A DNA stretch of 64,000 nt from Clostridiales bacterium (GTDB lineage Bacteria; Bacillota; Clostridia; Saccharofermentanales; Saccharofermentanaceae), in the NCBI GenBank assembly GCA_017428545.1, contig JAFRQR010000021.1, forward strand, positions 1-64,000, in the 5' to 3' direction. The notes beneath the pieces were generated by a model. The model did not search any database. It was not told where the DNA came from and saw nothing but the letters and a program-made list of their open reading frames with translations. Numbering within the stretch: the first letter of the stretch is position 1; each line of letters begins with the position of its first letter. Both the position numbers and the translations under genes were made by a program. Of this stretch, positions 4,338 through 63,868 are shown piece by piece.

Positions 4338-5657
4338 TCAGCGGTAGAGTTTGTTCCGCTTATACTGGATGACTTCGCGCTTAAAATCTTCTTCGAAAGT
4401 TCCGCGTGCGAGCGTCGTCCACAGATCGTGGCTTAAGCGGTCGAGCTCATCCATACGGGCAAATACGGGATCCTTGGCGAAGTGTCTGGCATCGGATGCG
4501 CGCGACAGGATCGGAAGGGAAGAAGACTCCCGCATGGACTTAAGAACACCCCGGCCCTTTTCGGAAAAACCGAGAAGACGGAGATACTTCGGGTCGGAAA
4601 GATTCTGAAGATCCTCCTTCGTCTGACCGACGGAAAGTGAGGCCAGCGAACGAAGGATCCGAGTATACGAAAAGCACCGGGTCTCGGCGGCTTTTCGGAA
4701 AGTCTCGGTAATATCTTTATCGGGATCAAAATGCATCGATCGGACGGCGGACTTCAGGTGTCCGGCAAGCTGCGGGCCCATATGCGCGACCAGAGAAAGC
4801 TGCTCGGAAGACGAGCAGCGAAGGACCGGAAGACAGTGGGAAAGCAGGTCCTTTTCGCCCATCGGGATCGTATTGCCGTTCCAAAGATGCAGCATCTCGG
4901 CAAGCATTTCTTTCGGAACATAAGGGAGAAGATCTCCGAGGGAGCGGATGAAATCGCCCTTTGTGAGGTTTTTATGGTTTTCGGAAACGGCCTTTCGTAT
5001 CGCCGTGGCACTCGGAAAGTCTCCTTCGGAAAGCTCTTCTTCGTGAAAAGAACCTTCCCGGCAGACCAGGTGCGGAACAACGGAAGATCCCGTGCGATGC
5101 AGCTCACGAAGATAGGAGATCGCGAGGATATTATTCGGCTTTCGGATGATGCTACCGAATTCTTCTTCTGAAAGCGGGAAGCTTCCTTCCGGAAGTCCTC
5201 CGATCACGGAGTTTGCCGCTTCCTGCCAGGCGGCGGCATAAGGAAGACCGTCCTTTTGCAGCTGTTCCAGTTTTTCGGAAAAAACCGGATCGGATTCGAA
5301 GTCCTTTTCGGCGATCAGAGAAAGATCGGAAAGAGAAGGATGCTCCGCCCCGAAATAAAGGTCGGTGATAACGTTGCTTTTCAAAAGGGAAAGCACGCCT
5401 CCGTGGGCGAAACGGTCTGCGGAACCGGTCGCAAAAGTAAACGGGAGCTCGAAAACAAGATCCGCGCCGTTACAAAGAAGCGCGCAGACGCGGCTTTCCC
5501 GGTCGGTCAGCGAAGGGATCCCGCGCTGGACAAAAGCGCCGCTCATGATCACGACGATGGGAGTCTGCTCCGAAAGCTCTTCACGGACCTTTTGGAACAG
5601 ACGCAGATGCCCGTTATGCAGGGGATTGTATTCGGCGATGATTCCCGCGATCCTCAT
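4338..5657 (-). CDS. tmcAL: tRNA(Met) cytidine acetate ligase TmcAL
   Basis: Installs N4-acetylcytidine at the wobble position of elongator tRNA-Met using acetate and ATP (established for the Bacillus YlbM/TmcAL family). The protein has 439 residues, near the family length of about 400. The N-terminus GIIAEYNPLHNGH carries the nucleotidyltransferase HxGH motif, followed by the family segments SGAFVQRG and FELPF. The start ATG is preceded by GGAGGAAAGA. It is transcribed divergently from the gene at 5730. Confidence 0.93.
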   Translation of the reverse strand: MRIAGIIAEYNPLHNGHLRLFQKVREELSEQTPIVVIMSGAFVQRGIPSLTDRESRVCALLCNGADLVFELPFTFATGSADRFAHGGVLSLLKSNVITDLYFGAEHPSLSDLSLIAEKDFESDPVFSEKLEQLQKDGLPYAAAWQEAANSVIGGLPEGSFPLSEEEFGSIIRKPNNILAISYLRELHRTGSSVVPHLVCREGSFHEEELSEGDFPSATAIRKAVSENHKNLTKGDFIRSLGDLLPYVPKEMLAEMLHLWNGNTIPMGEKDLLSHCLPVLRCSSSEQLSLVAHMGPQLAGHLKSAVRSMHFDPDKDITETFRKAAETRCFSYTRILRSLASLSVGQTKEDLQNLSDPKYLRLLGFSEKGRGVLKSMRESSSLPILSRASDARHFAKDPVFARMDELDRLSHDLWTTLARGTFEEDFKREVIQYKRNKLYR

Positions 5658-5675
5658 TTCTTTCCTCCAAACAAG

Positions 5676-5684
5676 TGGTACAAT
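5676..5684 (+). promoter_or_regulatory. Extended -10 promoter for the 5730-7921 pair
   Basis: TGGTACAAT fits TGnTAnAAT (extended -10) about 46 bases before the start at 5730, with no good -35 box. It lies in the divergent gap with tmcAL. Confidence 0.5.
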
Positions 5685-5729
5685 AAATAATATCTCAAAT
5701 GAGGCTTTTCGGAAAGGAGAAGAAACGAT

Positions 5730-7103
5730 ATGCCGGCTTTGACCTCGGTCAAATATTCCAATAAAAAAGTCAAAAAGATCGTAACGGTCTCCGTGATCGC
5801 CGTGGTTTTAGTAGTCGCGGCCGTTTTCGGGGTCAAGCTTCTTCTGGACAATGGAGTGTTTTCGAAAAAAGAAGATACTGCCGGGAATTCTTTTGCCATG
5901 ACGGATGAAATGAGTCAGATCGTTTCCGAAAGCGATCTTCATAAGGGATATATGTTTTCGCGTGTTACGAAGATCCTCTCCGAAGATCCGAAAATGAGTC
6001 CGTGGATCCTTTCCTGGTATGTGCTCCCGGGAACGACAAGAAGTGTTCCGGAAATGCAGTCGGCCTACGTGGATACGTTTGATCAGATACTGCTGCTGGA
6101 ATCTTATGTGCGCGAAGGGAAAAGAAGCTCGGCAAAGACCATGATCGATGCGATCGATACGTCTCTTACCGACGAAAGCGGATATCTTCTGAAGTTTAAA
6201 AAGGCGGATGAGCTTATTTCCGAAGACCAAAGGCCGCAGGTGGAAAAAAGCGACATTTTCGAGGATCAGTCGAATCTTCTTCTTTCAGACCCGCCGATCT
6301 CTATGGAAGCGACTACAAGATATCTGCGGGCACTTTTGGATTATTACGATAAATGGGGAGACAGTAAACTCCTGACCCGGATCGAAAATCTCGCGAAGAT
6401 GATCTTTGATGCAGGATCTAAGTCTTCCTATCGGGCCGCGGACCGTGCCGCGAAGCCGACACCGATCCCGGTAACGGAGAAAACGCTTGTTCCGGAGGAC
6501 TTCGAAGAGGAACCGGAACCTGAGGGGAATACATTGGTTTCGGTATCGGGCGTGGAGATCTGCGCCATGGATCTGGACGCCATGCGCCGCGCCACGGTGC
6601 TTTTGCCGGAGTATAAGGAAAAATACGAAGATATGATCCGCATCGTCAAAGAGGGGAAGATCTCTTCTGAGTTTCCGCTTTATGCGTGGATGTATTCGGA
6701 AGAAGCCGGATATACCTACTATACGGGAAGCGCCGGCGATGTCGAACTGGTGCCGTCTCTTTACGCGATGGTCCATCTTGCCGAGATCGGCCAGATGGAT
6801 GAGGACGGGTATGCATGGGTATCTTCGGAGATCTATAACAGCGGATTTCTCTATACTTCGTACAACATGATGTCCGGAGCGCCTTCGGAAACGGAAGCTT
6901 CCGAGGCCTATCCTCTCGTACTTTATCTGGCGGTGATCAAGGGCGATAACGATCTTTTTGCGGCGACTTACAATGCCATGATGAGAAACTACGCAACTCT
7001 CGATACGAGTGTGGCGCTATATGATTTCTTCCGCAATGCCGACGATTCGCGTATCGCTGTCTATGCCCGGGAAAATCTGCTGATGGAACTCATATTAAGG
7101 TAG
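5730..7103 (+). CDS. Membrane-anchored extracytoplasmic protein, unrecognised
   Basis: 457 residues. Lys-rich N-terminus (YSNKKVKKI) then one hydrophobic segment (residues ~14-36), so most of the protein should lie outside the membrane. The body is helical, with repeated Trp/Tyr-rich stretches (WILSWYVLPG, YLRALLDYYDKWGD, YAWMYSEEAGYTYY) separated by an acidic Pro/Glu linker near residue 250. The pattern recalls (alpha/alpha)6 glycoside hydrolases such as GH8, but I cannot assign catalytic residues. RBS GAAAGGAG precedes the ATG. Only 8 bases separate it from the CmpB-like membrane gene downstream, so they are probably cotranscribed. Confidence 0.75.
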   Translation: MPALTSVKYSNKKVKKIVTVSVIAVVLVVAAVFGVKLLLDNGVFSKKEDTAGNSFAMTDEMSQIVSESDLHKGYMFSRVTKILSEDPKMSPWILSWYVLPGTTRSVPEMQSAYVDTFDQILLLESYVREGKRSSAKTMIDAIDTSLTDESGYLLKFKKADELISEDQRPQVEKSDIFEDQSNLLLSDPPISMEATTRYLRALLDYYDKWGDSKLLTRIENLAKMIFDAGSKSSYRAADRAAKPTPIPVTEKTLVPEDFEEEPEPEGNTLVSVSGVEICAMDLDAMRRATVLLPEYKEKYEDMIRIVKEGKISSEFPLYAWMYSEEAGYTYYTGSAGDVELVPSLYAMVHLAEIGQMDEDGYAWVSSEIYNSGFLYTSYNMMSGAPSETEASEAYPLVLYLAVIKGDNDLFAATYNAMMRNYATLDTSVALYDFFRNADDSRIAVYARENLLMELILR

Positions 7104-7111
7104 GTGGGAAG

Positions 7112-7921
7112 ATGTCGTTTATTCTTTTGCTGGCATTTCTGTTTTTCGTGGGAAGCTTGACGGGATGGGTCCTCGAGCTGTTCTACCGGCGTTTCGTTTC
7201 GCAGCATAAGTGGGTCAACCCGGGCTTTTTATCCGGTCCGTATCTTCCGATCTACGGCTTCGGACTTGTGCTCCTTTACCTGATCGCCTCCCTGGAAAAA
7301 TACATCGATTTCGAAAATGAGGTGCTCGAAAAACTCCTTTTGTTTTTCCTGATGATGCTGGGCATGACCATCGTCGAGTATATCGCGGGTATCATCTGCC
7401 TGAAGTGTTTTAAGATGCGCCTTTGGGACTACACGGACCGCTGGGGAAATATCCAGGGCGTGATCTGTCCTCTTTATTCTTTTCTGTGGTCGGTCCTCGG
7501 CGCCGTCTACTATTTCCTGATCCACCCGCGTATCTTAAGATCGCTCGAGTGGCTGTCGAGGAATCTGGCGTTTTCGTTCTTCATCGGACTTTTCTACGGT
7601 ATCCTCATCATGGATATGCGCCACTCGACGCAGATCGTTCTGGCGATCAAGAAATTCGCCAAACAGCAGCAGATCGTACTTCATTACGAAGAACTCAAGG
7701 AGCGCATCGGCCAGTATAAGGAGAGCCGCCTGATCCATGCGGGATTTATCTTCAGAATGTGGATGGACAAGCCGTTCTACCGCTTCCTCAAAGAGACCTA
7801 TGAGACGACGATGGATCACATCAGTGATCTGACCGATAATCTTTCCGAGAAACTCTCGACCGCCGTAAACTCCGTCAAAAGCACTACCGGAGATACTTCG
7901 TCCAAGAAGGATACCAAGTAG
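7112..7921 (+). CDS. CmpB/PF06541-type integral membrane protein (putative ABC transporter type IV)
   Basis: 269 residues with about five hydrophobic segments in the first 180 and a charged, helical cytoplasmic tail. The N-terminus shows the family signature: GWVLELFYRR, then NPGFLSGPYLPIYGFG, and later WDYTDRWGNIQG. Members are common in Clostridia and labelled putative ABC transporter, but no ATPase is encoded next to it here and the function is not established. It follows the anchored protein at 5730 by 8 bases. Confidence 0.8.
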   Translation: MSFILLLAFLFFVGSLTGWVLELFYRRFVSQHKWVNPGFLSGPYLPIYGFGLVLLYLIASLEKYIDFENEVLEKLLLFFLMMLGMTIVEYIAGIICLKCFKMRLWDYTDRWGNIQGVICPLYSFLWSVLGAVYYFLIHPRILRSLEWLSRNLAFSFFIGLFYGILIMDMRHSTQIVLAIKKFAKQQQIVLHYEELKERIGQYKESRLIHAGFIFRMWMDKPFYRFLKETYETTMDHISDLTDNLSEKLSTAVNSVKSTTGDTSSKKDTK

Positions 7922-7938
7922 TTTTCTAAGCACCTTTT

Positions 7939-10417: not shown

Positions 10418-11647
10418 ATGGACAATCAGGAACAATCGCTGTTTGACCGGTTTCCGTCGGAGTTTTCCCATCTTCAGGAGAAGAGTACGGGTCTTAACAG
10501 TCCCCGTGACAGAGAGCTTCTGACGATCCTTCGCAACGAGCGTGAAAAGAACCTGTCGCCATATGCATTCCGTACCAAGGACAGCCGCGGCCGTAAATAC
10601 GATGAAACGCCCTGTCCGGTAAGATCTCCTTTCGAAAGAGATACCGGCCGTATCATTTACAGCCAGGCATTCCGGCGACTTCGCCATAAGACACAGGTAT
10701 TCTTCAACGCGAAAAACGACCATATCTGTTCCCGTATCGAACACGTGATCTACGTCAAGTACATCGCGACGACGATCGCGCGTGCCCTGAACCTCAACCT
10801 CGATCTTGTCGAGGCGATCGCGCTCGGACATGATCTCGGGCATGCGCCGTTCGGCCATACGGGCGAGAAGGTCCTCGAGGCCTGTGCAAAGAAGTACGAT
10901 CCGAATATGTTTTTCAGCCATGAGTACCAGAGCCTGAGAGTCATCGATGTTCTGGAACAGCGCCCGAACAAGAACCCCGGCGGACTGAATCTTTCTTTTG
11001 AAGTACGCGACGGTATCGTTTCGCACTGTGGTGAGACATATAGCGAATACAAACTGACTCCGTTCAGGGACAAGCCGGTCGAAGATCTTCTGATCCCGGA
11101 TAAGGCGCTGCATTCACTTCCTGCCACTTTGGAAGGATGTGTCGTAAGGATCTCCGATAAGATCGCTTATATCGGAAGAGATATCGAAGACGCCTGCGTG
11201 GCCGGCATCATGGAATTCGAGGATATCCCGCCGGCGATCAAGTCCCAGCTGGGAACGAACAATTCCCAGATCATTAACACATTGGTCAGCGACCTGATCC
11301 ATAACAGTCTGGATAAAGACGAGATCCGTCTTTCCGACGAGGCGGGCATGGCCATGAAAGAACTTCTCGAGGAGAATGTGGCGCGCATCTACCGTTCTGA
11401 GAAGATCAAGAGATACGAAAATACGGTCAAAAACCTTCTGGAAGGTCTGTTTGAGGCGCTGATGGGCGCGATGACGGATCCGGAAAAGACAGGCAGATCG
11501 ACCAATCCGGCGTACAGGAACCTCATGAAGTTTTTGGAGGAGTACCCGGATAAAAGTGCAAGTGACGTACAGATCGTAGTGGATTATATCGCCGGAATGA
11601 CTGACTCGTATGCAACGACCAGTTATGAGGATATCTACTGGATCTGA
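10418..11647 (+). CDS. dgt: Deoxyguanosinetriphosphate triphosphohydrolase-like protein
   Basis: HD-domain enzyme that hydrolyses dNTPs to deoxynucleoside plus triphosphate. Visible motifs are RRLRHKTQVF, the H of SRIEHV, the HD box in ALGHDLGHAPFGHTGE, and a later SDKIAYIGRDIED. A GTG at 10412 lies only 2 bases from the AGGAGG at 10404-10409, so I chose the ATG at 10418 (8-base spacing), giving 409 residues. It is followed after 13 bases by a second HD-domain nucleotidase, a coherent nucleotide-pool pair behind pcrA. Confidence 0.93.
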   Translation: MDNQEQSLFDRFPSEFSHLQEKSTGLNSPRDRELLTILRNEREKNLSPYAFRTKDSRGRKYDETPCPVRSPFERDTGRIIYSQAFRRLRHKTQVFFNAKNDHICSRIEHVIYVKYIATTIARALNLNLDLVEAIALGHDLGHAPFGHTGEKVLEACAKKYDPNMFFSHEYQSLRVIDVLEQRPNKNPGGLNLSFEVRDGIVSHCGETYSEYKLTPFRDKPVEDLLIPDKALHSLPATLEGCVVRISDKIAYIGRDIEDACVAGIMEFEDIPPAIKSQLGTNNSQIINTLVSDLIHNSLDKDEIRLSDEAGMAMKELLEENVARIYRSEKIKRYENTVKNLLEGLFEALMGAMTDPEKTGRSTNPAYRNLMKFLEEYPDKSASDVQIVVDYIAGMTDSYATTSYEDIYWI

Positions 11648-11660
11648 TCAAGGAGAAAAA

Positions 11661-12272
11661 ATGGAAAATAAAGAAGAACTGTATAATTTCTATGCCATGC
11701 TGGATCGTATGCAGTACATCCAGAGATGGGGTCTGATGAGAAATACCCGTCAGGAGAATCTTAAAGAGCACAGTTTCGATGTAGCGGTCATCGCACATTC
11801 GCTGGCACTTATTCACAATAACATACTGAAAAAGGACCCGGTCGATCCGTTCCTGACGATGGCGGAAGCCCTCTATCACGACGTTACGGAGATCATCACC
11901 GGCGATATGCCGACACCGATCAAGTACAAAAACGACGAACTGAAGTCGGCGTATAAAGAAGTCGAGGCTCAGGCGGCAAGAAACCTCCTGGCGCTTCTTC
12001 CCGAGGAGCTGAAGGGCGATTTTACGGACCTTCTGACACCGGATCTTTCCGACGAGAAGAGAAAAGAGGTCCACCGTCTGGTCAAGGTGGCGGACAGGAT
12101 CAGTGCTTTTCTGAAATGCCTCATGGAAGAAAAGGCGGCCAACGACGAGTTCCGTTCGGCAAAAGAGTCGATCGAAAAATCGATCCATGATTTGAACTGT
12201 GAAGAAGCAGAATATTATCTGGCTCATTTTGTTCCCCCTTACGGTATGACATTGGACGAGATCAGCAAGTAA
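11661..12272 (+). CDS. YfbR-like HD-domain 5'-deoxynucleotidase
   Basis: 203 residues. LYNFYAMLDRMQYIQRWGLM followed by RQENLKEHSFDVAVIAHSLA matches the YfbR family, which dephosphorylates dNMPs. HD residues appear in EALYHDVTEII. The frame opens at 11610 inside dgt, but AAGGAGA 5-6 bases before the ATG at 11661 fixes the start. It probably acts with dgt upstream in dNTP turnover. Confidence 0.85.
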   Translation: MENKEELYNFYAMLDRMQYIQRWGLMRNTRQENLKEHSFDVAVIAHSLALIHNNILKKDPVDPFLTMAEALYHDVTEIITGDMPTPIKYKNDELKSAYKEVEAQAARNLLALLPEELKGDFTDLLTPDLSDEKRKEVHRLVKVADRISAFLKCLMEEKAANDEFRSAKESIEKSIHDLNCEEAEYYLAHFVPPYGMTLDEISK

Positions 12273-17025: not shown

Positions 17026-18456
17026 ATGATCGACATTAACGCTCCGCAATTCCTTCAGACCGCAAATAAATTCGGGATCAAACTCGGACTTGAGCGGATG
17101 GAGCAGCTCCTCAGTAAATTAGGTAATCCGGAAAAAGCACTTTCCGCCTTCCACATTGCCGGTACGAACGGCAAGGGTTCCGTCAGCGCGTACTGCGCGG
17201 GCATGCTCGCCTGGGACGGCAAGAAGGTCGGCCTTTATACATCTCCGTTTCTGGAAAGATTCAGCGAGAGGATCCGTATCCTCGATGGAAGAGAAGGCCT
17301 TCTTTCCTGGGAAAAAGACGACACCACCGGCGAGATCGACAGTGCTTCTTTGGCGCGCCTTTCCGATCTTGTCGAAAGTAAGGTAAAAGAACTTCTTTCA
17401 GAAGGACAGGAGCACCCGACGGAGTTTGAACTCGTCACGGCCGTGGCTTTCCTTTATTTCGCCGAGCAGAAATGCGACGCGGTCGTTTTGGAGACCGGAC
17501 TTGGCGGAAGACTTGATTCCACAAACGTCATTGAAAAACCGAAAGCCTGCATCATCACGGCGCTCGGCTATGACCATACCGACCGTCTCGGAAATACCTT
17601 AGGAGAGATCGCCGGCGAAAAGGGCGGCATCATCAAGGAAGGCTGCCCTGTCTTTATCATGGATACACATCAGCGCGCCGTAGAATACGACGAGGCTGAA
17701 GATGCAAAGAAAGTTCTCGAGACAATCGCAGAAGAAAAGCATGCGCCGCTTACCTGGATCAGAAGAGACGAAGCCGAAAGGACCGCACAGAATCTGCGCG
17801 GACAGAGCTTTATCCTGAAAAATAAATCGTACAGGATAAGGATGCACGGCAGCTATCAGCTGGAGAATGCCTCTCTGGCGCTTCGGGCAATGGAGCAGTT
17901 TGTCTCCCCGGAAGCCATGAGAGAAGGCCTTTGCCATGTGCGCTGGAAGGGAAGGCTGGAGGCGATCTGCTTTGACCCGCCGATCATTCTGGATGGAGCG
18001 CATAATCCGCAGGGAGTGACCTCGTTTACCGCATTTCTTTCGGAAATGGAAGTGCTTTCCGAGGAGAATCCGTGTGAAGTGATCATGGGCGTCATGGCCG
18101 ATAAGGATGTCTCTTCCATGCTCGATATCCTCGTGGAGAACTGGTGCGTGCCTGTCGGGCGCATCACTTTGGTCACCCCGGACCAGAAGCGCGCGATGCC
18201 TGCGGCGGATCTTCGCAATGCATGGGACATGGCGCTGCGCCGGAGCAAAGAGTTTTACAATTTAGAGTCGTGTATGTATAATGCTAGAGAAAAACTGATC
18301 GCCGTAAATGACGTTGAAACGGCGTGCAGGAATGCGGTGGAAAGGGCATTTCGGAACCATGCGCCGGTCTATATGATCGGATCGCTCTATCTTCTCGGTG
18401 AAGCCAGGGGCTATATCGAGGACGGAATGAGGGCTCTGGGTCTTCCGCAAAACTAA
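17026..18456 (+). CDS. folC: Folylpolyglutamate synthase / dihydrofolate synthase
   Basis: Adds glutamate to folates (Mur-ligase fold). The N-terminus carries the FolC P-loop HIAGTNGKGSVSAYC, followed by YTSPFLERFSERI, VLETGLGGRLDSTN, GYDHTDRLGNTLGEIAGEKG and, in the C-terminal domain, ILDGAHNPQG. 476 residues is slightly longer than usual (about 430). RBS AAGGAG precedes the ATG. Confidence 0.95.
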   Translation: MIDINAPQFLQTANKFGIKLGLERMEQLLSKLGNPEKALSAFHIAGTNGKGSVSAYCAGMLAWDGKKVGLYTSPFLERFSERIRILDGREGLLSWEKDDTTGEIDSASLARLSDLVESKVKELLSEGQEHPTEFELVTAVAFLYFAEQKCDAVVLETGLGGRLDSTNVIEKPKACIITALGYDHTDRLGNTLGEIAGEKGGIIKEGCPVFIMDTHQRAVEYDEAEDAKKVLETIAEEKHAPLTWIRRDEAERTAQNLRGQSFILKNKSYRIRMHGSYQLENASLALRAMEQFVSPEAMREGLCHVRWKGRLEAICFDPPIILDGAHNPQGVTSFTAFLSEMEVLSEENPCEVIMGVMADKDVSSMLDILVENWCVPVGRITLVTPDQKRAMPAADLRNAWDMALRRSKEFYNLESCMYNAREKLIAVNDVETACRNAVERAFRNHAPVYMIGSLYLLGEARGYIEDGMRALGLPQN

Positions 18457-25342: not shown

Positions 25343-25378
25343 CGCCTTCGGGAAAAGCACTTTCCCGGAGGCGTTTTT
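25343..25378 (+). terminator. malQ terminator carrying the AAAAGCAC element in its apex
   Basis: CGCCTTCGGGAAA pairs with TTTCCCGGAGGCG, with an AGCAC loop and TTTTT after the stem. The octamer AAAAGCAC (25353-25360) spans the upper stem and loop. Confidence 0.85.
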
Positions 25379-31728: not shown

Positions 31729-31851
31729 ATAATTCCTGCTCTCTTTTATGTCTGGTTCAAGTGCTTTTGCGTCTGCCGGAACAGGGGGCAAAAATGCGCC
31801 TGAAACCCCAGTTAAATATGAATATAAAAAGTGTAACACAATGCGAAATAA

Positions 31852-37556: not shown

Positions 37557-37624
37557 AAAAGCACCACCGCCGCCGTTCCTTGGGATCAAACCCTGCGGAA
37601 TCGCTCCGGTGGTGCTTTTGCTTT
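37557..37624. terminator. Bidirectional terminator built from an inverted pair of AAAAGCAC elements
   Basis: AAAAGCACCACCG and CGGTGGTGCTTTT form a 13-bp outer stem between convergent genes; the A/T ends supply T-runs in both directions. Octamer copies are at 37557-37564 and 37612-37619. Confidence 0.8.
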
Positions 37625-38991: not shown

Positions 38992-39133
38992 AAATTGTCC
39001 TCCTTGATGTGGCTTAAGAAAGTGCTTTTCGAAAAGAAAAGCCGTGCCGGCTGATATGGTTAAAGTATATCAGACGGCAGGGGGGATGTATATCAGATCG
39101 ATGATAGATTTGTCATTTCAAAAAAGGGCATTG

Positions 39134-47875: not shown

Positions 47876-49813
47876 TCAGCCGCGCCCTTCTTTGTGCTTC
47901 TTTTTTACTTCGTACATCTTCGCGTCCGCGATCTTTAAGTATTCTTCTGAGAACGCACGGATCGTCGCGGGATTCGTTTCGACATCCTTCGGCGGCACTT
48001 TGATGCATACACCTGTGCTGACGCGGAGAGGGTAGATCTTCTGGTCGCGCATCACGCATTTCTGGATATAGTCGCACAAAGACTTCACGTAGATCATAGC
48101 CTTTTCTTCGGAGTAGTCTTTCGCGAGAACGACGAACTCATCGCCGCCGGTACGAAGACAAACTTCGCCGTTGAGCGCGGCGAGCCGCATGCCGGCCGCG
48201 ATCGTGCAAAGACTGTAGTCGCCCTCGGCGTGACCGTAGTTATCGTTAACGAGTTTTAAGTCATCCATGTCGATCATCATAACACCGATCGGCACACTCT
48301 TTTCAAGGCACTCCTTGAAGATTTCCGAAAAGAACATCTCATAGCCGTGACGGTTATAAAGGTTCGTCAGCATATCGCGGTTGTAGAGGTTTTCCATCCG
48401 CTGAAGGGAAAGGTTCAGTTTGTGGCGGATCCTCCAGTTTTCGAGCATCGATCCCAGGTTAACGAGCCAGGACTTCATGAACAGTGTCTCGTGCGCCTCG
48501 TTCTGCGGAGACACGATGAGATACCCCATGTAATACTGCAGGTGATGGATCGTGAAAATGTAGTACGGATTCGGATCGTTAAGAAGCTTTGGCGGAAGCA
48601 GGTCCTTCTTCCGGAAGGTCTCCCGCCGGACCGGCTCGGGTCCGATAAAACCGGCGACGACGGTCATCTCTTCGTCCTGCTTGGAAAAGTCATTCGTGAT
48701 GACGCGCTGGTTCTCCCAGTCGGGCGCCAGGCATAGAAGCATATTCGTAAAACCGGAGTCGATGGCGGAGTAACGCGTAATTTCCGAAAAGCACTCTTCC
48801 ATCGTCTTGGCGCTCGAAATACCAAGTACGAGGCTGGTCGTGGACTGCGCCAGATCGGAAACACGGTCGATCCTTCTTGTATAGACCGATCGTATATCTT
48901 CGATGTTATAGGTGCTCATGGACACGCATCCGCAGGACTGGTTGCACTTAAGTTCCCCCGGGATATGGACATTCTCCGTGATCTTTTCGCCATCCCACAG
49001 TTTCTTCAGCGTATAGATACATTCGTATCCGGAAGAGAAGAAGGGCTGCGCGCTGGTCGTGATCGACGGATATCCCTGATAGGCTTCGTCAAGTCCGTCA
49101 TATCCGGTGACGATTAAATCGCCCGGTACATCGATACCCCTGCTGTGGCATGCATTGATCAGGCCGACGGCGGAATAATCATTGGCGCAGACGATTGCGT
49201 CCGGATACTTCTTTCCGCGCTTTTGGCAATCAGAAAGGATATAGTCGAGCGCCGCCTCGCCGCAGTCATGCCAGAGCGTTCCGTAATAGACTTTGTCCGG
49301 GTCAAAAGCAATACCGTGCGATTCAAGTGCTTTTCGATAGGCGTCGATACGGGTCTGGGTGAAATTTCTTTCGCGAAGTCCGGCGAGATGATAAATGTCC
49401 CTGCTGCCGTGCTTTTCGATCAGGTGACTGACGAGGTTGATGAAGGATTCCGTCTCGTTGGTGATGACGTTGAGATAGCGCTCGTCGTATCCCGCGACAT
49501 TGATGATCGGGATCGTGGCTTTGCTCAGACGGTCGTCGAGGTGCTTGATGGTATAAGGCCCGTAGGCCAGATCGACGCGGATGATGCCGTCGAAATCGTC
49601 GAGGTCGGGAAGTTCAAAAGCGGCGATATCGCCTTCGTCGTAGTGGTTGTACTGTTCATAGACGCGATTGCTGAAGTCGTCGCTGAAGGCAACGAAGAAA
49701 AAGACCTTGACGCCGAGCTCGAGAGCTGCCTTGCTGATGCCTTCCTGTATCGCATGCGTCATCGGTTCGTAGATATTCGGTGAAAAAACGGCTACTTTCT
49801 TTCTGTGTTCCAT
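47876..49813 (-). CDS. Diguanylate cyclase fused to a LacI-type sugar-binding sensor
   Basis: 645 residues from the ATG at 49813 (GAGGCACAAT upstream). Residues ~1-285 are a periplasmic-binding-protein type 1 fold as in LacI effector domains (VAVFSPNIYEPMTHAIQEGI, HLAGLRERNFTQTRIDAYRK, DAIVCANDYSAVGLINACHS) without helix-turn-helix or signal peptide, so the sensor is cytoplasmic. A Cys cluster (KCNQSCGC) follows, then a GAF-like middle region. The GGDEF domain at ~475-640 is intact: LYNRDMLTNLYNRHGYEMFF, MMIDMDDLKLVNDNYGHAEG and RTGGDEFVVLA. It should make c-di-GMP in response to a small ligand, perhaps a sugar. It is the only clearly active cyclase in the window. Confidence 0.9.
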   Translation of the reverse strand: MEHRKKVAVFSPNIYEPMTHAIQEGISKAALELGVKVFFFVAFSDDFSNRVYEQYNHYDEGDIAAFELPDLDDFDGIIRVDLAYGPYTIKHLDDRLSKATIPIINVAGYDERYLNVITNETESFINLVSHLIEKHGSRDIYHLAGLRERNFTQTRIDAYRKALESHGIAFDPDKVYYGTLWHDCGEAALDYILSDCQKRGKKYPDAIVCANDYSAVGLINACHSRGIDVPGDLIVTGYDGLDEAYQGYPSITTSAQPFFSSGYECIYTLKKLWDGEKITENVHIPGELKCNQSCGCVSMSTYNIEDIRSVYTRRIDRVSDLAQSTTSLVLGISSAKTMEECFSEITRYSAIDSGFTNMLLCLAPDWENQRVITNDFSKQDEEMTVVAGFIGPEPVRRETFRKKDLLPPKLLNDPNPYYIFTIHHLQYYMGYLIVSPQNEAHETLFMKSWLVNLGSMLENWRIRHKLNLSLQRMENLYNRDMLTNLYNRHGYEMFFSEIFKECLEKSVPIGVMMIDMDDLKLVNDNYGHAEGDYSLCTIAAGMRLAALNGEVCLRTGGDEFVVLAKDYSEEKAMIYVKSLCDYIQKCVMRDQKIYPLRVSTGVCIKVPPKDVETNPATIRAFSEEYLKIADAKMYEVKKKHKEGRG

Positions 49814-49953
49814 ATTGTGCCTCGAAAAATGCCATCTGTCAGTGTGTCCGGTTCTGCCGACGGAAAGTAATACATCGACAAGTTCATGATACAAAAGAAG
49901 TGTTGCGAGTTTATGAACATCTCTTTATCGCTCTTTTTATGAAACTGATAATG

Positions 49954-50700: not shown

Positions 50701-50731
50701 ACAGGTGCTTTTCGATCTGAAAAGCACCTGT
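50701..50731 (+). repeat. Perfect 13-bp hairpin made of two inverted AAAAGCAC elements in the hydratase leader
   Basis: ACAGGTGCTTTTC and GAAAAGCACCTGT flank GATCT. No T-run follows, so it is not an obvious terminator; it sits between the predicted transcription start and the RBS of the hydratase gene. Confidence 0.85.
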
Positions 50732-53054: not shown

Positions 53055-53144
53055 GCTGAAAGGCATTCAGCCCAACGGTATTTGAAACCCGGCGGAAGCC
53101 GGAAGAGACAGCTCCCGGACAGGTGCTTTTGAAAAAGAAAAACG

Positions 53145-53183: not shown

Positions 53184-53290
53184 TTCGTTGTGATTACAGG
53201 TTCGGTATGAATGACTTTTTCAAGTGCTTTTCGCGCGGATGCCTGAAAGATTGACCGGCGCGGAAGTGCTGCCCGCGGGTAAAGTGTGAC

Positions 53291-54410: not shown

Positions 54411-54520
54411 GAGGACAATCAGTTAAGTGAAGTAACTGACCTCAGTGCTTTTCGAGCATCGGAAAAAGAACTCGAAAACGCGGGGAAAAGGCACAAAATC
54501 AAAGGAAGGAGGACATCTTG

Positions 54521-55045
54521 ATGAATGAGCATTTGCCGGGTACGTTGATCTCCGTGACGAAAGAGCATCTTCAGAACGTAGACGGGATACTGGATCCGAT
54601 GTTCCTGATGGAAGGCATGCAGCTGCGGCAGGTGACACAGCTTCTCGGAATCGAGGCGCACACGGTGCAGAACTGGGTAAAGAGAAAGTTCGTGGAATCG
54701 CCGGTCAATAAGTTTTACAACCGGGACCGGTTCGTGCGGCTTGCGATCCTGAATTATTTCAAAGATGTCTTCTCTTTAGAGGGTATCCTCGAACTTTTGA
54801 AGATGGCGAACCAGGATAACGAGGTCTACAGTGCTTTTTGCGCATTACTTGCCGTAGCGCCGGTCGACCCGATCCGGTCGGAGACCAAACTGAATGACAT
54901 GATCGAAAAAGTCATCGATCAGCAGAAGTTTGATTACAAGAGAACAAGCCGCGAACAGATCAAGAAACTGCTCACTGTCCTTTATACCGCACACCTTTCG
55001 ATCGTGCTCAAGAAAGAGGCAGAACGGCTGTTAAGAGAAATCTAG
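54521..55045 (+). CDS. DUF1836-family protein
   Basis: 174 residues. QLRQVTQLLGIEAHTVQNWVKRKFV is a MerR-like helix-turn-helix, followed by YNRDRFVRLAILNYFKDVF and a helical C-terminal half, matching DUF1836 (PF08876). A DNA-binding regulator is likely. ATG 54521 follows AAGGAGGA; the TTG just before it is not needed. It heads the operon with the NfeD and flotillin genes, so it may regulate them through the palindromes upstream. Confidence 0.85.
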   Translation: MNEHLPGTLISVTKEHLQNVDGILDPMFLMEGMQLRQVTQLLGIEAHTVQNWVKRKFVESPVNKFYNRDRFVRLAILNYFKDVFSLEGILELLKMANQDNEVYSAFCALLAVAPVDPIRSETKLNDMIEKVIDQQKFDYKRTSREQIKKLLTVLYTAHLSIVLKKEAERLLREI

Positions 55046-55060: not shown

Positions 55061-56101
55061 ATGGAATTTCTTGTAAATTGGTTTGAAGCATTAAATCTGT
55101 CTGAGCAGATCTTCGCGTGCATCGCGGTCGTCTTCACCGTTCTTTTGATCTTCCAGTTTATTCTCCTGCTGATCGGAGCAGCGTCTCATGCAGCAGGCGA
55201 TCTGAACGGCCACGATATGGGCGGACATGGTCACGATTTCGGCCACGGACACGATATGGATGTCGGGCACGACGGTTCGGTCGGACACGATTTCGGCCAC
55301 GGCCACGGAGATTTCGGACATGATGTCGGTCATGATTTCGGACACGGACATGGCGACTTCGGACACAGCTTCGGTCATGGTGACGTCGGAGGGATCCACG
55401 GAGATGTCGGAACAGATGTGGACGGATCCATTCACGGAGATCTCGCAGGCGCAGACGGACACGGTTTCGATTACGATCACGATCTGGACACCGATACACA
55501 TGTCGGACAGATCATCCACGATTTCGGTCAGGTGCAGGGAAGCGTCGTTGTAGATGTACATAGTGGTGATGTCTACCTCGCAGACGCCGCACCGCACGAT
55601 CTGATGGTTCGAGGGCCGGATGTAGGTATCCCGGATCAGGATCTGCCGGACGGAAGGACGTACGTCGACCGCGCAGACAAACTGCACGGTTCCGGATTCA
55701 GACTCTTCTCGATGCAGGGCATCATCGCCTTCTTCAGCCTCTTCGGCTGGACGGGCCTGATCTTCATGAAAGCGGGAATGCCGGTCTGGGGCGCAGCGCT
55801 ACTTGCCTTTGTCTGCGGATTTGTCGGAATGTTCTTGATGGCACTTGCTCTATGGGGTATGCTAAAAGCACAGTCTGACGGAACAATGGATATCAGAAAT
55901 GCGCTCGGCATGGACGGTGAAGTTTATATCCCGATCCCCGGTAAGCGTGAAATGCCCGGAAAAGTCATCGTAAAGGTCCAGGACCAGCTGTCGGAATTCG
56001 ACGCGGTCACGGACGAAGAAGAAAAGCTTGGTACCGGTACTCAGATAACGGTCATCGGCATCACAAAGGGTACAACACTGATTGTGACCAAACATAATTA
56101 A
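55061..56101 (+). CDS. NfeD-like membrane protein with a His/Asp/Gly-rich insert
   Basis: 346 residues. Helix 1 at ~15-40 is followed by a ~95-residue stretch built from GHDFGHGHG-type repeats (residues ~49-150, more than 25 His) then a beta-like region. Two or three helices follow (~218-268: GIIAFFSLFGWTGLIF, GAALLAFVCGFVGMFLMALA), and a C-terminal OB-fold of NfeD type (DGEVYIPIPGKREMPGKVIV, GTGTQITVIGITKGTTLIV). NfeD proteins pair with flotillins, whose gene follows. The His-rich insert is unlike ordinary YuaF/NfeD proteins and could bind Zn, Ni or Cu; it would lie between helix 1 and 2, probably outside. Confidence 0.83.
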   Translation: MEFLVNWFEALNLSEQIFACIAVVFTVLLIFQFILLLIGAASHAAGDLNGHDMGGHGHDFGHGHDMDVGHDGSVGHDFGHGHGDFGHDVGHDFGHGHGDFGHSFGHGDVGGIHGDVGTDVDGSIHGDLAGADGHGFDYDHDLDTDTHVGQIIHDFGQVQGSVVVDVHSGDVYLADAAPHDLMVRGPDVGIPDQDLPDGRTYVDRADKLHGSGFRLFSMQGIIAFFSLFGWTGLIFMKAGMPVWGAALLAFVCGFVGMFLMALALWGMLKAQSDGTMDIRNALGMDGEVYIPIPGKREMPGKVIVKVQDQLSEFDAVTDEEEKLGTGTQITVIGITKGTTLIVTKHN

Positions 56102-57974: not shown

Positions 57975-58754
57975 TTATTGACAGGGGTGGGACATCATGA
58001 TCTGCGTAATGATTATACCGAGTATCTTTCCCTTGGTTACATCAGTGAAGAATCCCTCGTTCCAGTTCTCGTAAATGTAAAGGATATCGAGACCCTCTTG
58101 AAGACCGTACTGGTCGTAAACTCCGATCTTTTCAAGTGCTCTGAGCCGATAAGCATTGTCGTTCATCATGCCGAAATGCTCGATAAAGAAGAAACGCCCG
58201 GTTTCTGGACAGAAGACTGCAAAATCAATATAGTAGGTATGTTCTCCGATCGTCAGGATGACTTCGTATTTGTACTCCAACCCGAAAGCCTTAAGCATCT
58301 GAGCAGTAAGAAGTTCGGATTTTGAGCGGAAGACGTGCCCGTCAAAAGGATATGCTTTGGTCAGATTATCATCTCTCTTTTCAACCAGCTGATCGAAGGC
58401 TTCTTTAGAAAAGTTGAAACTTCGCTTTCCGGGAACAGCGGTCGCAATTCCCGAAATCCCCGACAGATCAAGCTGATCTTTGTATGGCAGTTCCGAAAGG
58501 GCTTTCAGGAGCTCATCTTTTCGCTTTTTCTTCTGTAAAAGCACCTTCCCTCCGGCTGTGTCTAAGTCGATCTGCTTCCTTTGTTTTCTTGCTGTTCCGC
58601 GATCAACATAGATACGTGCGACGTCAATGGTCCTTCCATTGCGACGGCGCTGACCGATAAAAACATCCGGAAGAGATTTAAGCTCATCGGATATCTCTTG
58701 AATGTGCCTTTGACGCAAAATTAAAGCTGAATGATACAGATGGGAAGCAATCAC
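57975..58754 (-). CDS. PD-(D/E)XK nuclease-like protein, function unknown
   Basis: 259 residues. The C-terminal half reads FRSKSELLTAQMLKAFGLEY (a Glu in the first core helix), YYIDFAVF (Asp in the second strand) and FFFIEHFGMM (Glu-His where Glu-x-Lys is usual), the pattern of a restriction-endonuclease fold found in many clostridial proteins of unknown role. The first ~100 residues are basic and helical. The start is probably GTG 58754, 8 bases after AAAGG; GTG 58763 overlaps that RBS. There is no methyltransferase or transposase nearby. It reads toward the tandem repeats. Confidence 0.7.
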   Translation of the reverse strand: MIASHLYHSALILRQRHIQEISDELKSLPDVFIGQRRRNGRTIDVARIYVDRGTARKQRKQIDLDTAGGKVLLQKKKRKDELLKALSELPYKDQLDLSGISGIATAVPGKRSFNFSKEAFDQLVEKRDDNLTKAYPFDGHVFRSKSELLTAQMLKAFGLEYKYEVILTIGEHTYYIDFAVFCPETGRFFFIEHFGMMNDNAYRLRALEKIGVYDQYGLQEGLDILYIYENWNEGFFTDVTKGKILGIIITQIMMSHPCQ

Positions 58755-58804
58755 GGTGTTCACCTTTCATGTGAGGATTCGCCGATTGACCATTTGTAAA
58801 TGCA

Positions 58805-58848
58805 GAATAGAGAATCAGACGGTTACGAATAGAGAATCGGGCGTTTAC
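58805..58848. repeat. Two direct 22-bp repeats upstream of the nuclease-like gene
   Basis: GAATAGAGAATCAGACGGTTAC is followed directly by a copy with 4 differences (GGG for AGA, T for G). They lie about 50-90 bases upstream of the nuclease-like gene start and could be binding sites for a regulator. Confidence 0.55.
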
Positions 58849-58941
58849 ACCTGGAGAGTATCACAAACGAAGTTTGCATTTCTCGCAAAAATAAAGACAA
58901 AATCTTACAAATCTCGGTTTTTTGCAAGTTCTGCAGCGCGT

Positions 58942-60045
58942 TTACTTTTTCTGGCGGATGGAAAAGAGCACGAGGATCCGAAGCGTCTCGATCAGGCGGG
59001 CACGGGACTTCGCGTCGACGGCTTTGGTTGCGTCGATGATGTGCGACATCTTTACTGCCCAGCTGCTGTCCGGGCGGAAGATATTGCTCGCGCCGGAAGA
59101 GGTGGCGATGTGGTAGAGCATTTCCGTAAAACTCTCCCTATCCTCGAAAGACTGGTCGGAAAGCCAGCTGTTGACGGCGGCGATGCGGACGCCGGCGTTT
59201 TTGTCCCAGGACGGAACATAGGAAAAATCGTCCTTTTTCACTTCCCAGGTAAAAGGACTGTGCTGCTTGAGCCACAGGGCTTTGTTCTCGATGAACTTCG
59301 TCCCCGGCGCGCTCTCTAGGAGCATGCCGACGAAAGAAGAGGAAGGCACGAGGTGATGGACCACATCCGCGATCTTTTTGTACTGCTCGGTCTCGTGAAG
59401 TTTAAAGGAAAAACCCGGACCGTCGAAGGAATAGATCCCGAGGATCCGTGACTTAAGTGCATCCGAACAGCCCGCCGCGGAATAGATCGAAAGGTTTCCG
59501 CCTTTGGAATGCCCTCCGATATAAAAGCGGATGCCCGGAGGCAGCTCGCGGCCCAGATAATTTAAGTAGCGCGCAGCTTCTTCCTGCGCGGGGACAGGAT
59601 ACCGGTATGAAAGCTGGAAGTCTTCTTTCCAGCCGATCAGGGTACCGTCCGTTCCGCGGAAAGCAACGAAACAGATGTTATCCGGAAGGTGAAAGCACAT
59701 GGCGGCAAACTGGATCTGCTCTTGGTCATTCGTTCTGGCGCAGAGGTGGGAAATGGCGACATCCTTATACCGCGGGCTGATCCGAAGGATATCGATCATC
59801 TTAAGATTGTTCTCGGTGTCGGCGGCATACTGGCCGAAAAGCGGCATCTCCTGCGACTTCGGCATCTCGGAAAAGAGCATGGACTCAGAGATCTGGTACG
59901 GCCATTCGCGCGTCCAGATATTGTGCAGCAGGTACTCCCACTGAAAATACGTCGCCTCGGCAAAAACGAGCGCGTCGATATGGTTGAACGGGAACTCCGA
60001 AAAGGGGCGTTTCTCGCTCTTAACATAGTCCAGTATCGTACTCAA
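58942..60045 (-). CDS. DUF2974 (Mbeg1-like) lipase-fold protein
   Basis: 367 residues from TTG 60045, which follows GGAGGTAAGGGA; the frame continues to 60072 but that start would contain the RBS in its codons. CFVAFRGTDGTLIGWKEDFQ and the nucleophile elbow YIGGHSKGGNLSIYSA match the DUF2974 alpha/beta hydrolase family. Catalytic Asp and His cannot be fixed; candidates are SFDGPGF and the later H of VVHHLVPSSS. No signal peptide. It may act on lipids or a thioester, but the substrate is unknown. It is divergent from the GGDEF-EAL gene. Confidence 0.85.
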   Translation of the reverse strand: MSTILDYVKSEKRPFSEFPFNHIDALVFAEATYFQWEYLLHNIWTREWPYQISESMLFSEMPKSQEMPLFGQYAADTENNLKMIDILRISPRYKDVAISHLCARTNDQEQIQFAAMCFHLPDNICFVAFRGTDGTLIGWKEDFQLSYRYPVPAQEEAARYLNYLGRELPPGIRFYIGGHSKGGNLSIYSAAGCSDALKSRILGIYSFDGPGFSFKLHETEQYKKIADVVHHLVPSSSFVGMLLESAPGTKFIENKALWLKQHSPFTWEVKKDDFSYVPSWDKNAGVRIAAVNSWLSDQSFEDRESFTEMLYHIATSSGASNIFRPDSSWAVKMSHIIDATKAVDAKSRARLIETLRILVLFSIRQKK

Positions 60046-60250
60046 TCCCTTACCTCCGAGGAAGTCCCGCAAGGCTCATCCCGCAGGGCTTTTCCCGCGC
60101 AAAAGCACTTGTGCTTCCTTTGTTTCCGTTCTCATTATACTACGATTGGAATAGAAATTCGCCGTCTCATCGGGTAAAATAGAGGTACCAAAACGAGAGC
60201 GGATCGAGGCTCTCAAAAAGACCGCAACAAGGAAAAGGACGGGTCGGACC

Positions 60251-62332
60251 GTGGAAGGACTTCTTACAATTTCATACATATTTCCGATCTGCGCGGCGCT
60301 GCCTCTGGGCGTGCTCATCATGTACTTTTTCAGCAAGCGCCAGCTCCCTGTTCAGAGAAACCGCATGTTTACCGCGGCGATCATCCTGTCGTGTGCGGAC
60401 GTGGTTTTCGAGTTCTTTTCCGCGATCGTCGTAAACAATTCGAAAGACATTCCCGAGGTCCTCGGGACATTCGTCCTGGTGCTTTTTTATCTGCTTCGTC
60501 TTTCGTTTCCGGTCCTGATGAGCTACTATGCCGTTTCGATCACAAAAGAACTGAAACCGAAAAACTTCTGGTCTTTGATCGCGATCGCGAGCCCGGCTTT
60601 GCTTGTCGGCGTGATCGTGCTGTTTACCCCTGCGACGAAACTGTTCTTCTACTATGAGGACGGCAGTTATTTCCGCGGTGAATACTTCATACTCCTTTCG
60701 CTCGTGACCGCCGTGTCGGCCATCTTTTCCGCGGTCTACGCGCTATGGAAAAAGCCTCTTTTCGAAGGCCACTCTTTTCCGATCGTTCTTTCGTTTTCAT
60801 TCCTGGGACTGGCAAGCGTACTGATCGATCTGGTCCGCCCGGACAGAAATGTTTCTTCCGTCGCGATCTCGACGGCGATGCTGATCGCCTGCCTGTCGCT
60901 GACGAAGCCCGAGTCCCTGATCGACCATCTGACGGGACTTTTGAACCTCGACGCCATGATGACCTATACCGACGAACTGATCTCCCGAGAAGCCCGCTAC
61001 TACGTCATCGTCATGAAGGTCGAAAACATCCGCCGTATCAACTCGATCTTCGGCTACACCGTCGGTAGTTTAACGCTGAAGAACATCGCCGATTTCCTCT
61101 CGACGTTCTCGCCGGACTTAAGCGAAAGACCGCGCCTTAGAAAGAACATCAAGCTCTACGAAGGGTCTTCCGCTTCGTCGTCCGAGAGTACGGAAAAAGC
61201 CATCGGAGATGCCCGCCGCCTCGAAAGGACACTTCCGCCGGCATGGGCATTCCGCCTCATGAGTAACCAGTTTGCAATCGTCAGCACAAGCGAATCAACG
61301 CACGAGAAGATCCTCCAGTGCCTGCATGAACGTTTCGAAGACCCGTGGCAGGTAAGAGGACTTGAGATCAACCTCATGCTCACCGTCGCAGAGATGCCCG
61401 AGACAGGTTCTTTTGCATCGGGATCGGACCTTTATAAAGTCGTCGAGATCGTGCTCCCTGCCGTCCCGAAGGGCGACACCGTAACGGTATCCGAAAGAGA
61501 ACTTGGCAAGATCGAGCGTCTCATCCTTATGGAAACTTCCTTGGAAAAAGCACTGGAAGAGGAAACGCTGGATGTGCGTTTCCAGCCCGTCTATAACATC
61601 GCGACCGGCCGCTACGACAAGGTCGAGGCACTGGCGCGTTTTGCACATGAACAGTGGGGCGATGTCCCGCCTTCCGAGTTCATTCCGATTGCGGAAAAGA
61701 GAGGACTTGTCACACAGATCGATGAGTTTGTTTTGAGAAAAGCCTGCGAGTTTTTGAAGGATGCGGAGGATACGAATGTCGAATTCGTGAGCATCAACAT
61801 TTCCGTCGCCGAAATGGCCAGCTCCGCCTTCCCGAAAAGAGCGTGCGCGATATTAGACGAATACGGCATTCCTTATCGGAAGATCGTTTTTGAGATCGCG
61901 GAACCCGCGCTCATGACATCGATCATACTGATGCTCGAAAACCTGACCGAACTTGCCAATCTGGGGTTCGGATTCTGCCTGGATAACATGGGCCTCGGAA
62001 CCGGAGATATCGGACGCCTCGCGGTGCTTCCGTTCTCCATGGTCAAGATGGACAGAAGTGTCCTTGAAGAAGTCCAGACCTCGCCGAAATCCAGGATCAT
62101 TTTCGAAAATACGATCGACGTTTTAAAGAAGATGGAGATCCTCTCGGTCGTCGTCGGAGCGGAGACATCCGCCCAGGTCGAGTGGATCCTTGAAACGAGC
62201 CCGGACAATATCCAGGGGTTCTACTATGCCCGTCCGATGGACGAAAAGGGGTGCCTGGCATTTATCCGTAAGAATAATGCACAGACACCCAAAAAGCCCG
62301 GAAGGGATAATTTCATTGTCGTCACCGAGTGA
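60251..62332 (+). CDS. 7TM-type membrane protein with degenerate GGDEF and altered EAL domain
   Basis: 693 residues. Seven hydrophobic segments (residues ~5-225) of the MASE/histidine-kinase 7TM sort lead to a GGDEF-like domain (SLIDHLTGLLNLDAMM) in which GGDEF is replaced by RLMSNQFAIV. The EAL domain at ~430-680 keeps EAL itself (KVEALARF), the Asn of SINISVAEM, EIAE and KMDR. However, the DDFGTGYSS motif reads LDNMGLGTGD (second Asp lost) and QGY is QGF, so phosphodiesterase activity is doubtful. GTG start. It ends close to the convergent aquaporin gene. Confidence 0.87.
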   Translation: MEGLLTISYIFPICAALPLGVLIMYFFSKRQLPVQRNRMFTAAIILSCADVVFEFFSAIVVNNSKDIPEVLGTFVLVLFYLLRLSFPVLMSYYAVSITKELKPKNFWSLIAIASPALLVGVIVLFTPATKLFFYYEDGSYFRGEYFILLSLVTAVSAIFSAVYALWKKPLFEGHSFPIVLSFSFLGLASVLIDLVRPDRNVSSVAISTAMLIACLSLTKPESLIDHLTGLLNLDAMMTYTDELISREARYYVIVMKVENIRRINSIFGYTVGSLTLKNIADFLSTFSPDLSERPRLRKNIKLYEGSSASSSESTEKAIGDARRLERTLPPAWAFRLMSNQFAIVSTSESTHEKILQCLHERFEDPWQVRGLEINLMLTVAEMPETGSFASGSDLYKVVEIVLPAVPKGDTVTVSERELGKIERLILMETSLEKALEEETLDVRFQPVYNIATGRYDKVEALARFAHEQWGDVPPSEFIPIAEKRGLVTQIDEFVLRKACEFLKDAEDTNVEFVSINISVAEMASSAFPKRACAILDEYGIPYRKIVFEIAEPALMTSIILMLENLTELANLGFGFCLDNMGLGTGDIGRLAVLPFSMVKMDRSVLEEVQTSPKSRIIFENTIDVLKKMEILSVVVGAETSAQVEWILETSPDNIQGFYYARPMDEKGCLAFIRKNNAQTPKKPGRDNFIVVTE

Positions 62333-62381
62333 CTTTCGGCACGCTGCCGGCAAGTGCTTTTCCCGGAGACCGGAAACAATA

Positions 62382-63107: not shown

Positions 63108-63178
63108 ATTACAACCTCCTTACGATAAATTCTATTTACCTATGATATAAGATTAACACTTTCCGCGAGACAATGACA

Positions 63179-63187
63179 TGATATAAT
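63179..63187 (+). promoter_or_regulatory. Extended -10 promoter for the MBL-fold gene
   Basis: TGATATAAT fits TGnTATAAT, about 36 bases before the ATG at 63224; no good -35 box. Confidence 0.55.
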
Positions 63188-63223
63188 CGAAATGTAAAAA
63201 TATTACAAAGTGAGGGAAAAGAA

Positions 63224-63868
63224 ATGCTCGACAGTGTCGCGATCAATCTTCATAGCAGTATCAGGATCTCTTCGGGAAAAGCACTCTACTTCGATCCTTT
63301 CCGCATCGAAGAAAGTACCGGTGACGCGGATATCGTTTTCGTGACACATGACCACTACGATCATTTCTCGCCCGAAGATATTGTGAAAGTCATGAAGGAA
63401 GATACCATCTTCGTTGCGCCGGCATCCACGGCGGCCCTGATCAGGCAGACTTTACAGATCCCGGATGAAAGGATCGTTACCGTAGCACCTGGCGATGCTC
63501 TTGAGGTTTCGGGGATCCCGGTAGAGGTCATCGCTTCGTATAATCCGGGAAAGAGGTTCCATCCGAAGGCGAACGGATGGGTCGGATATGTCGTTACCGT
63601 AGACGGGCTGCGCTACTATATCTGCGGTGACATGGACATCACGGAAGAGGGAAAGGGCGTAAGTTGCGACGTTCTCCTTGTTCCCTGCGGCGGGACTTAC
63701 ACCATGAATGCGGATGAAGCAGCTGAATTCACCGGCATTCTGAACCCGAAGTACGCGATCCCGACGCACTACGGCGACCCGGTCGGCGAAAAGAGCTGCG
63801 GCAGTGCTTTTGCAGAGAAGGCAAAAGTAAAAGCGCCGGATACGACTGTCGTTTTTAAGCTTTTCTGA
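63224..63868 (+). CDS. Metallo-beta-lactamase-fold hydrolase (UPF0173-like)
   Basis: 214 residues. THDHYDHFSPED is the HxHxDH metal motif; NPGKRFHPKANGWVGYVVTV, ICGDMDIT (Asp ligand) and PTHYGD (His ligand) complete the site. The family contains YcjX/UlaG-like and UPF0173 members of unclear substrate. It lies alone after a TGnTATAAT promoter. RBS AGTGAGGGAAAAG. Confidence 0.85.
   Translation: MLDSVAINLHSSIRISSGKALYFDPFRIEESTGDADIVFVTHDHYDHFSPEDIVKVMKEDTIFVAPASTAALIRQTLQIPDERIVTVAPGDALEVSGIPVEVIASYNPGKRFHPKANGWVGYVVTVDGLRYYICGDMDITEEGKGVSCDVLLVPCGGTYTMNADEAAEFTGILNPKYAIPTHYGDPVGEKSCGSAFAEKAKVKAPDTTVVFKLF

Follow-up and report, generated by a model that had tools for sequence, protein, structure and literature searches.

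A probable DNA uptake sequence, with dialects, in a clostridial genus near Saccharofermentans

The octamer and its copies in the window

The first 64 kb of contig JAFRQR010000021.1 of a Clostridiales bacterium (assembly GCA_017428545.1), the stretch that we call the window, carries numerous copies of the octamer AAAAGCAC within and between its genes. A sequence-only reading of the window had counted 39 exact copies, 18 on the plus and 21 on the minus strand, and this count proved exact, with the first copy starting at 4670 and the last ending at 63811. That reading had put the chance expectation at about two; dinucleotide shuffles of the window give a mean of 1.79 and a largest value of 7, and with an order-3 Markov background no other 8-mer of the window is in such excess (39 versus 4.1). 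One-base variants had been estimated at about a dozen, and AAAAGCAT indeed occurs 12 times.

The copies are spread over genes of many kinds. On the plus strand, intragenic cores lie at 4670-4677 (in the minus-strand gene 4338-5657), 7877-7884 (gene 7112-7921), 17133-17140 (a folC-like gene), 18876-18883 (gene 18481-19542), 21337-21344 (prfC, on the minus strand), 23503-23510 (gene 23024-23827), 33203-33210 and 33896-33903 (both in gene 31908-35900), 45283-45290 (gene 44276-45748), 48787-48794 (gene 47876-49894), 55864-55871 (gene 55061-56101), 58537-58544 (minus-strand gene 57975-58763), 61546-61553 (an EAL/GGDEF gene) and 63277-63284 (gene 63224-63868). Their minus-strand counterparts are found at 6597-6604 (gene 5730-7103), 12103-12110 (HD-domain gene 11610-12272), 23848-23855 (a malQ-like gene), 28082-28089 (an ABC ATPase gene), 28831-28838 and 30041-30048 (each within an ABC permease gene), 31761-31768 (gene 30637-31866), 32844-32851 (gene 31908-35900), 42056-42063 (an EAL-domain gene), 49327-49334 and 49409-49416 (gene 47876-49894), 54831-54838 (gene 54518-55045), 60479-60486 (an EAL/GGDEF gene) and 63804-63811 (gene 63224-63868). 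Single intergenic cores stand at 25353-25360 and 60101-60108 on the plus strand, and at 39022-39029, 53123-53130, 53224-53231, 54445-54452 and 62354-62361 on the minus strand. The remaining copies form two inverted pairs that fold into strong hairpins: one spans 37557-37619 (plus-strand core at 37557-37564, minus-strand core at 37612-37619) and, lying between convergent genes, makes the stem of a hairpin that resembles a terminator (-36.5 / -41.1 kcal/mol), and the other is an intergenic hairpin with a 13-bp stem at 50705-50727 (minus-strand core at 50705-50712, plus-strand core at 50720-50727; -21.5 / -21.0 kcal/mol). The window also encodes, at 11-4255, a 1414-amino-acid cell-surface protein with CnaB-like repeats and a C-terminal anchor region.

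The excess extends to the whole genome (G000; 2.917 Mb in 35 contigs), as the sequence-only reading had proposed to check: AAAAGCAC occurs 1,402 times, 687 on the plus and 715 on the minus strand, against 141 occurrences of the reversed word (71 and 70). Under an order-4 Markov model, 422 copies stand against 92.8 expected in 0.82 Mb of this genome. The density amounts to roughly 480 copies per Mb, and most copies lie within genes. All genomes in the analysis are draft assemblies. The genome-wide word counts are complete, and the flank and codon statistics cover about 28% of the genome, taken in stretches (about 0.81-0.82 Mb), with genes called simply as longest open reading frames and the replication strand inferred from GC skew.

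The octamer turns out to be the core of a degenerate motif of about 28 bp, from about -12 to +15. On the 5' side the preferred bases are T-12, T-9, C-7, T/C-6, C-4, G/T-3, G/C-2 and G-1, and on the 3' side T/C+8, T/G+9, C around +11/+12 and G+15, with no homology past these flanks. The flank consensus of the sequence-only reading was thus right in that the flanks are constrained, and too short in its length. These preferences are alike in 328 coding and 93 intergenic copies, and likewise in congeners. A one-base variant, AAAAGAAC, bears the motif flanks above chance, and so may be a second-best site. The sampled congeners, those with another main dialect included, all show a mild enrichment of AAAAGAAC(TG), which is one base off the core and has the flanks of the motif; it may be an ancestral word or, again, a second-choice site for the binding protein.

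The motif has no replication polarity, with 193 leading-strand and 228 lagging-strand copies in the sample. On contigs C4 and C31 the lagging strand has about two copies for each one on the leading strand, and the other contigs are roughly even; within genes, sense and antisense copies are about equal. Together with the even strand counts of the whole genome, this bears out the earlier claim that there is no strand bias. A five-fold higher intergenic density had also been claimed, which holds for the window, where 11 of the 39 copies are intergenic in 5.7% of the DNA, but in the sample of 0.81 Mb the difference is about 2.6-fold (1.17 versus 0.45 per kb). Inverted pairs, which the sequence-only reading had noted for some copies, are common: among copies less than 60 bp apart, 16 of 19 pairs are inverted, ten of those being intergenic.

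Some stretches of the genome are free of the motif. One is a cluster of ribosomal-protein genes that covers 18 kb (C10, 98,182-116,364) and another a relaxase/integrase element (C8, 7,176-20,000), but core genes of the ordinary kind are among them as well. A 24-kb stretch of ordinary core genes (C31, 219,703-244,082; L047-L049), including secA, an mreC-like gene, radC, icd and comEC, exceeds the length expected by chance. The type IV pilus operon (C26, 54,805-67,843; L136) comprises 13 kb without any copy. Two further sequence features were seen in this genome: an array of short inverted repeats (TTTAGTCCYAY ... RTRGGACTAAA) with a 53-bp period at about 43,711-44,060 of C1 (L001-L004), which is the strongest 10-11-mer excess besides the motif, and GCGATCGC, the cyanobacterial HIP1 word, which is about two-fold over-represented in the sample (84 versus 41).

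Distribution, dialects and conserved sites

Enrichment was found in 23 of 23 genomes of the genus; among 92 genomes from four further genera of the family it was found in 0. As judged by PrfC, the nearest named relatives are metagenome-assembled genomes of rumen Saccharofermentans and Clostridiales, and these are without the motif. Within the genus, the word itself changes with lineage. Dialects in other congeners were detected from sampled stretches and counted words, which showed G009 to over-represent AAATGCAC(TG) (42 versus 8.2). Genome-wide, AAATGCAC(TG) reaches 664 copies in G009, 594 in G010 and 577 in G016, against about 50-160 in other congeners. G010 and G016 still hold 662 and 739 copies of AAAAGCAC, respectively, and so have both words strongly enriched within one genome, as if caught in the middle of a dialect change, or as if their receptor accepted either A or T. 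Since an AddA tree splits G009 from G010 and G016 with full support, the A-to-T change at core position 4 seems to have arisen twice.

Two further genomes, G008 and G021, had at first the appearance of plain motif losses. This idea was dropped when a search guided by the flanks arrived at AAAAG(A/C)(A/T)C with a CG behind it; both AAAAGATCCG and AAAAGAACTG are enriched in this pair. The AAAAGATCCG dialect was predicted from samples of 160-200 kb and then tested on the 23 whole genomes, where it counts 260 and 266 in G008 and G021 and 5-75 in the other 21. The upstream T/C-rich flank is common to all three dialects. This constancy, and the equality of flanks between coding and intergenic copies, points to one protein that binds double-stranded DNA and reads about 28 bp.

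Copies are also retained at orthologous sites, a test that the sequence-only reading had suggested. In G007, 13 of 19 aligned AAAAGCAC sites of our genome are kept at 78% identity, against a background 8-mer retention of 20%, and in G022 the figure is 16 of 28 against 35%. At 32 of 135 aligned orthologous AAAAGCAC instances, pooled over eight genomes and therefore non-independent, G009 reads AAATGCAC, whilst five control octamers show this A-to-T change in 2 of 197. Compared with G000 alone, counting the variants by their core gives 6 of 27 recoded sites, with five exact AAATGCAC and others besides, and seen from the G009 side there are six exact AAATGCAC. Sites of the GATC dialect lie mostly away from old AAAAGCAC sites.

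An uptake receptor and its rivals

In our judgement, a DNA uptake sequence is likely to have evolved independently in a clostridial genus near Saccharofermentans and to be spread over the whole genome, with the octamer as its core. Its reader would be an uptake receptor, and the cells would be naturally competent. An uptake receptor with a sequence bias produces by drive just such a motif: about 28 bp long, of the kind read on double-stranded DNA, free in orientation, kept both within and between genes, confined to a single genus and changing from lineage to lineage. The interpretation offered by the sequence-only reading is thereby strengthened, by the excess, the lack of polarity, the long flanks, the inverted pairs, the conservation, the clade limit with its dialects, and the machinery described below. 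Indeed, those sequence-level predictions of an uptake sequence that could be tested here were all borne out, apart from depletion in mobile DNA and in highly constrained genes, on which the motif-free stretches give a mixed picture.

The genes for such a process are present. ComEA was detected in 22 of 23 congeners (no match in the draft G017), ComEC in 21 (no match in the drafts G001 and G017), adjacent PilB/PilT ATPases in 22 and DprA in all 23, in agreement with the check on ComEA, ComEC and a type IV pilus that had been proposed. The type IV pilus operon of our genome, on contig C26, holds pilD, pilB, pilT, pilC, pilM, pilN and a PilO-like gene, together with two small pilins, two minor pilins of 168-179 amino acids encoded at 58296-58835 and 58850-59356, and a large PilX-like protein; its products include proteins with a pilin signature. 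As no separate ComGA-class ATPase scored in the PilB range in the congener genomes, the pilus driven by PilB/PilT is likely the uptake pilus.

A DNA-binding subunit of this surface machine, most likely one of the minor pilins of the type IV pilus driven by PilB/PilT and alternatively ComEA, would prefer double-stranded DNA that carries the motif. Retraction of the pilus would hand the DNA to ComEA and ComEC, and DprA and RecA would recombine it. With kin DNA taken up preferentially, point mutations would build up the motif in both orientations wherever a site tolerates it, and a shift in the preference of the receptor would slowly rewrite the genome, giving rise to dialects. In its fuller form, to which we lend somewhat guarded but favourable credence, the proposal is that of a third independent origin of sequence-specific uptake and the first in Gram-positives, with the type IV pilus or ComEA reading the motif of about 28 bp, at least three dialects, and two occurrences of the A-to-T change at core position 4. 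Uptake sequences have been stated for two Gram-negative families alone, the Neisseriaceae and the Pasteurellaceae (PMC7811141, PMC3630211, PMC12616744). Our literature searches brought up no uptake sequence described from Firmicutes, nor any work on competence in Saccharofermentans.

Several points weigh against this proposal. The genes for ComEA, ComEC and PilB/PilT are shared with motif-free relatives, which makes it necessary to assume a receptor specific to the genus. We sought the receptor through residues common to the two T-dialect lineages, a route that was abandoned as the proteins compared gave no signal: the T-dialect genomes share no exceptional residues in the two minor pilins, the small pilin, ComEA, PilB or AddA. 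No PilB/PilT pair or minor pilin was detected in the draft G010, despite its 662 and 594 copies of the two words. The analysis rests wholly on draft assemblies, and the natural competence of members of the genus is something that we infer. Finally, uptake is sequence-independent in almost all other competent species, and sequence-specific uptake has been termed an outlier (PMC12040237).

Could the excess simply be a by-product at the level of the sequence, arising from mutation bias, from codon-pair or methylation effects, or from a dispersed repeat family? After synonymous codons were shuffled within genes in 0.81 Mb, 41.3 coding copies remained on average (standard deviation 5.8, maximum 59 in 200 shuffles) against the 329 observed, an eight-fold excess, and all six coding registers hold the octamer (sense 31/31/102, antisense 68/70/27), so that the claim of the sequence-only reading that codon preference is not the cause is well founded. 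In the same test, the reversed word, ACAAAGCA, AAATGCAC and AAGAGCAC came out at or near expectation in our own genome, leaving reversed and scrambled controls at or near the level that chance would give. The one-base variants AAAAGAAC, AAAAGCAT and AAAAGCGC are raised two- to three-fold over the shuffles (AAAAGAAC 200 versus 66, AAAAGCAT 92 versus 44), which lends the by-product idea some support and indicates that codon context contributes a little. However, the degenerate flanks show that the copies are not homologous, no single repeat family was found behind them in the own-genome sample, and dialect switching is confined to clades. The excess thus survived both the codon-pair and the single-repeat-family correction that might have dissolved it; an origin in codon pairs or a repeat family is ruled out by the synonymous shuffles and the heterogeneous flanks, and a by-product origin in general is largely refuted here and, to our minds, very improbable. 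The main rival is a Chi-like site that would regulate AddAB or another end-processing helicase-nuclease, accumulate in the core genome, and differ between dialects through changed Chi recognition. AddA is present in 23 of 23 congeners, an octamer over-represented in core DNA is Chi-like, and Chi sequences vary by species (PMC8022716, PMC3630211). Polarity with replication has been used as a criterion for Chi (PMC8022716), yet the 193 leading and 228 lagging copies show none; the extended two-sided flanks and the inverted hairpin pairs are un-Chi-like, and the T-dialect origins come without matching shared residues in AddA, the AddAB subunit that was compared. Because there is no strand polarity and the flanks do not fit, Chi is disfavoured, and we hold it to be unlikely.

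Perhaps, instead, the motif is bound by some abundant protein that organises the chromosome or has a regulatory role, with no tie to uptake. A fixed core with degenerate flanks would be expected of any protein that binds double-stranded DNA, and the intergenic excess and the hairpins would suit such a role. The known proteins of this kind bind at some tens to a few hundred places, which are often polarised or restricted to particular regions, whereas here there are some 480 copies per Mb, mostly intragenic, in all registers and both orientations. Conservation at orthologous coding sites also speaks against this, and such a protein gives no selective reason for a wholesale change of dialect at the same orthologous sites; we think it improbable.

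If the uptake sequence is confirmed by experiment, it would be the first such self tag outside two Gram-negative families, with dialects in sister species. A convergent case in the Bacillota would show that uptake sequences do not depend on an outer membrane, and would add a third case from which to learn why they evolve, be it by preference for kin DNA or by molecular drive, which is still unsettled. The genus offers natural pairs of receptor and motif, as it has three dialects, an A-to-T change that apparently occurred twice independently, and two genomes with both words. An anaerobe lineage would also be naturally transformable, which may help its genetics.

Comparison with known systems

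The closest parallels are the two established Gram-negative systems, which the clostridial motif resembles in almost all the respects that could be compared (PMC3630211, PMC7811141, PMC12616744). The uptake signal sequences (USS) of the Pasteurellaceae are likewise found on both strands, in inverted terminator pairs and in lineage dialects, and the Hin-USS and Apl-USS (AAGTGCGGT and ACAAGCGGT) resemble our motif in having about 1,400 copies and a fixed core with long degenerate flanks (PMC7811141, PMC12616744). They belong, however, to another phylum; their invariant inner core GCGG is missing from the clostridial core AAAAGCAC, and their flanks are AT-tracts whereas the clostridial flanks are T/C-rich on the 5' side and Y-K-C-rich on the 3' side. 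The string AAGTGC, the reverse complement of GCACTT, is shared with the USS, probably by coincidence. The DNA uptake sequences (DUS) of the Neisseriaceae, with eight dialects around GCCGTCTGAA and the receptor ComP, share the genome-wide excess, the terminator pairs, the type IV pilus and ComEC, as well as dialects within the clade that are one or a few bases apart (PMC3630211). Their invariant CTG core is missing from the clostridial words AAAAGCAC, AAATGCAC and AAAAGATC; the DUS is short and continuous whereas the clostridial flanks are long and degenerate, and the host here is a member of the Bacillota with no ComP homologue identified, a search of PDB sequences for ComP-like pilins having returned weak pilin matches and no ComP. 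Judged by its sequence, the motif belongs to neither DUS nor USS.

Clostridial type IV pilins that bind extracellular DNA are known in the minor pilins PilJ and PilW of Clostridioides difficile (PMC9556784); unlike the system proposed here, these are linked to biofilm formation; in vitro, that species has shown no competence, and it is not known to have an uptake sequence. Chi, the regulator of RecBCD and AddAB, is also an over-represented octamer of core DNA with species-specific variants, and AddA is present in our genus, but the clostridial motif differs in lacking strand polarity and in having long two-sided flanks and inverted hairpin pairs. Uptake-sequence copies number 1,465 in H. influenzae and 1,892 in N. 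meningitidis (PMC7811141). With 1,402 copies in 2.9 Mb, the clostridial motif matches the known systems in copy number and density.

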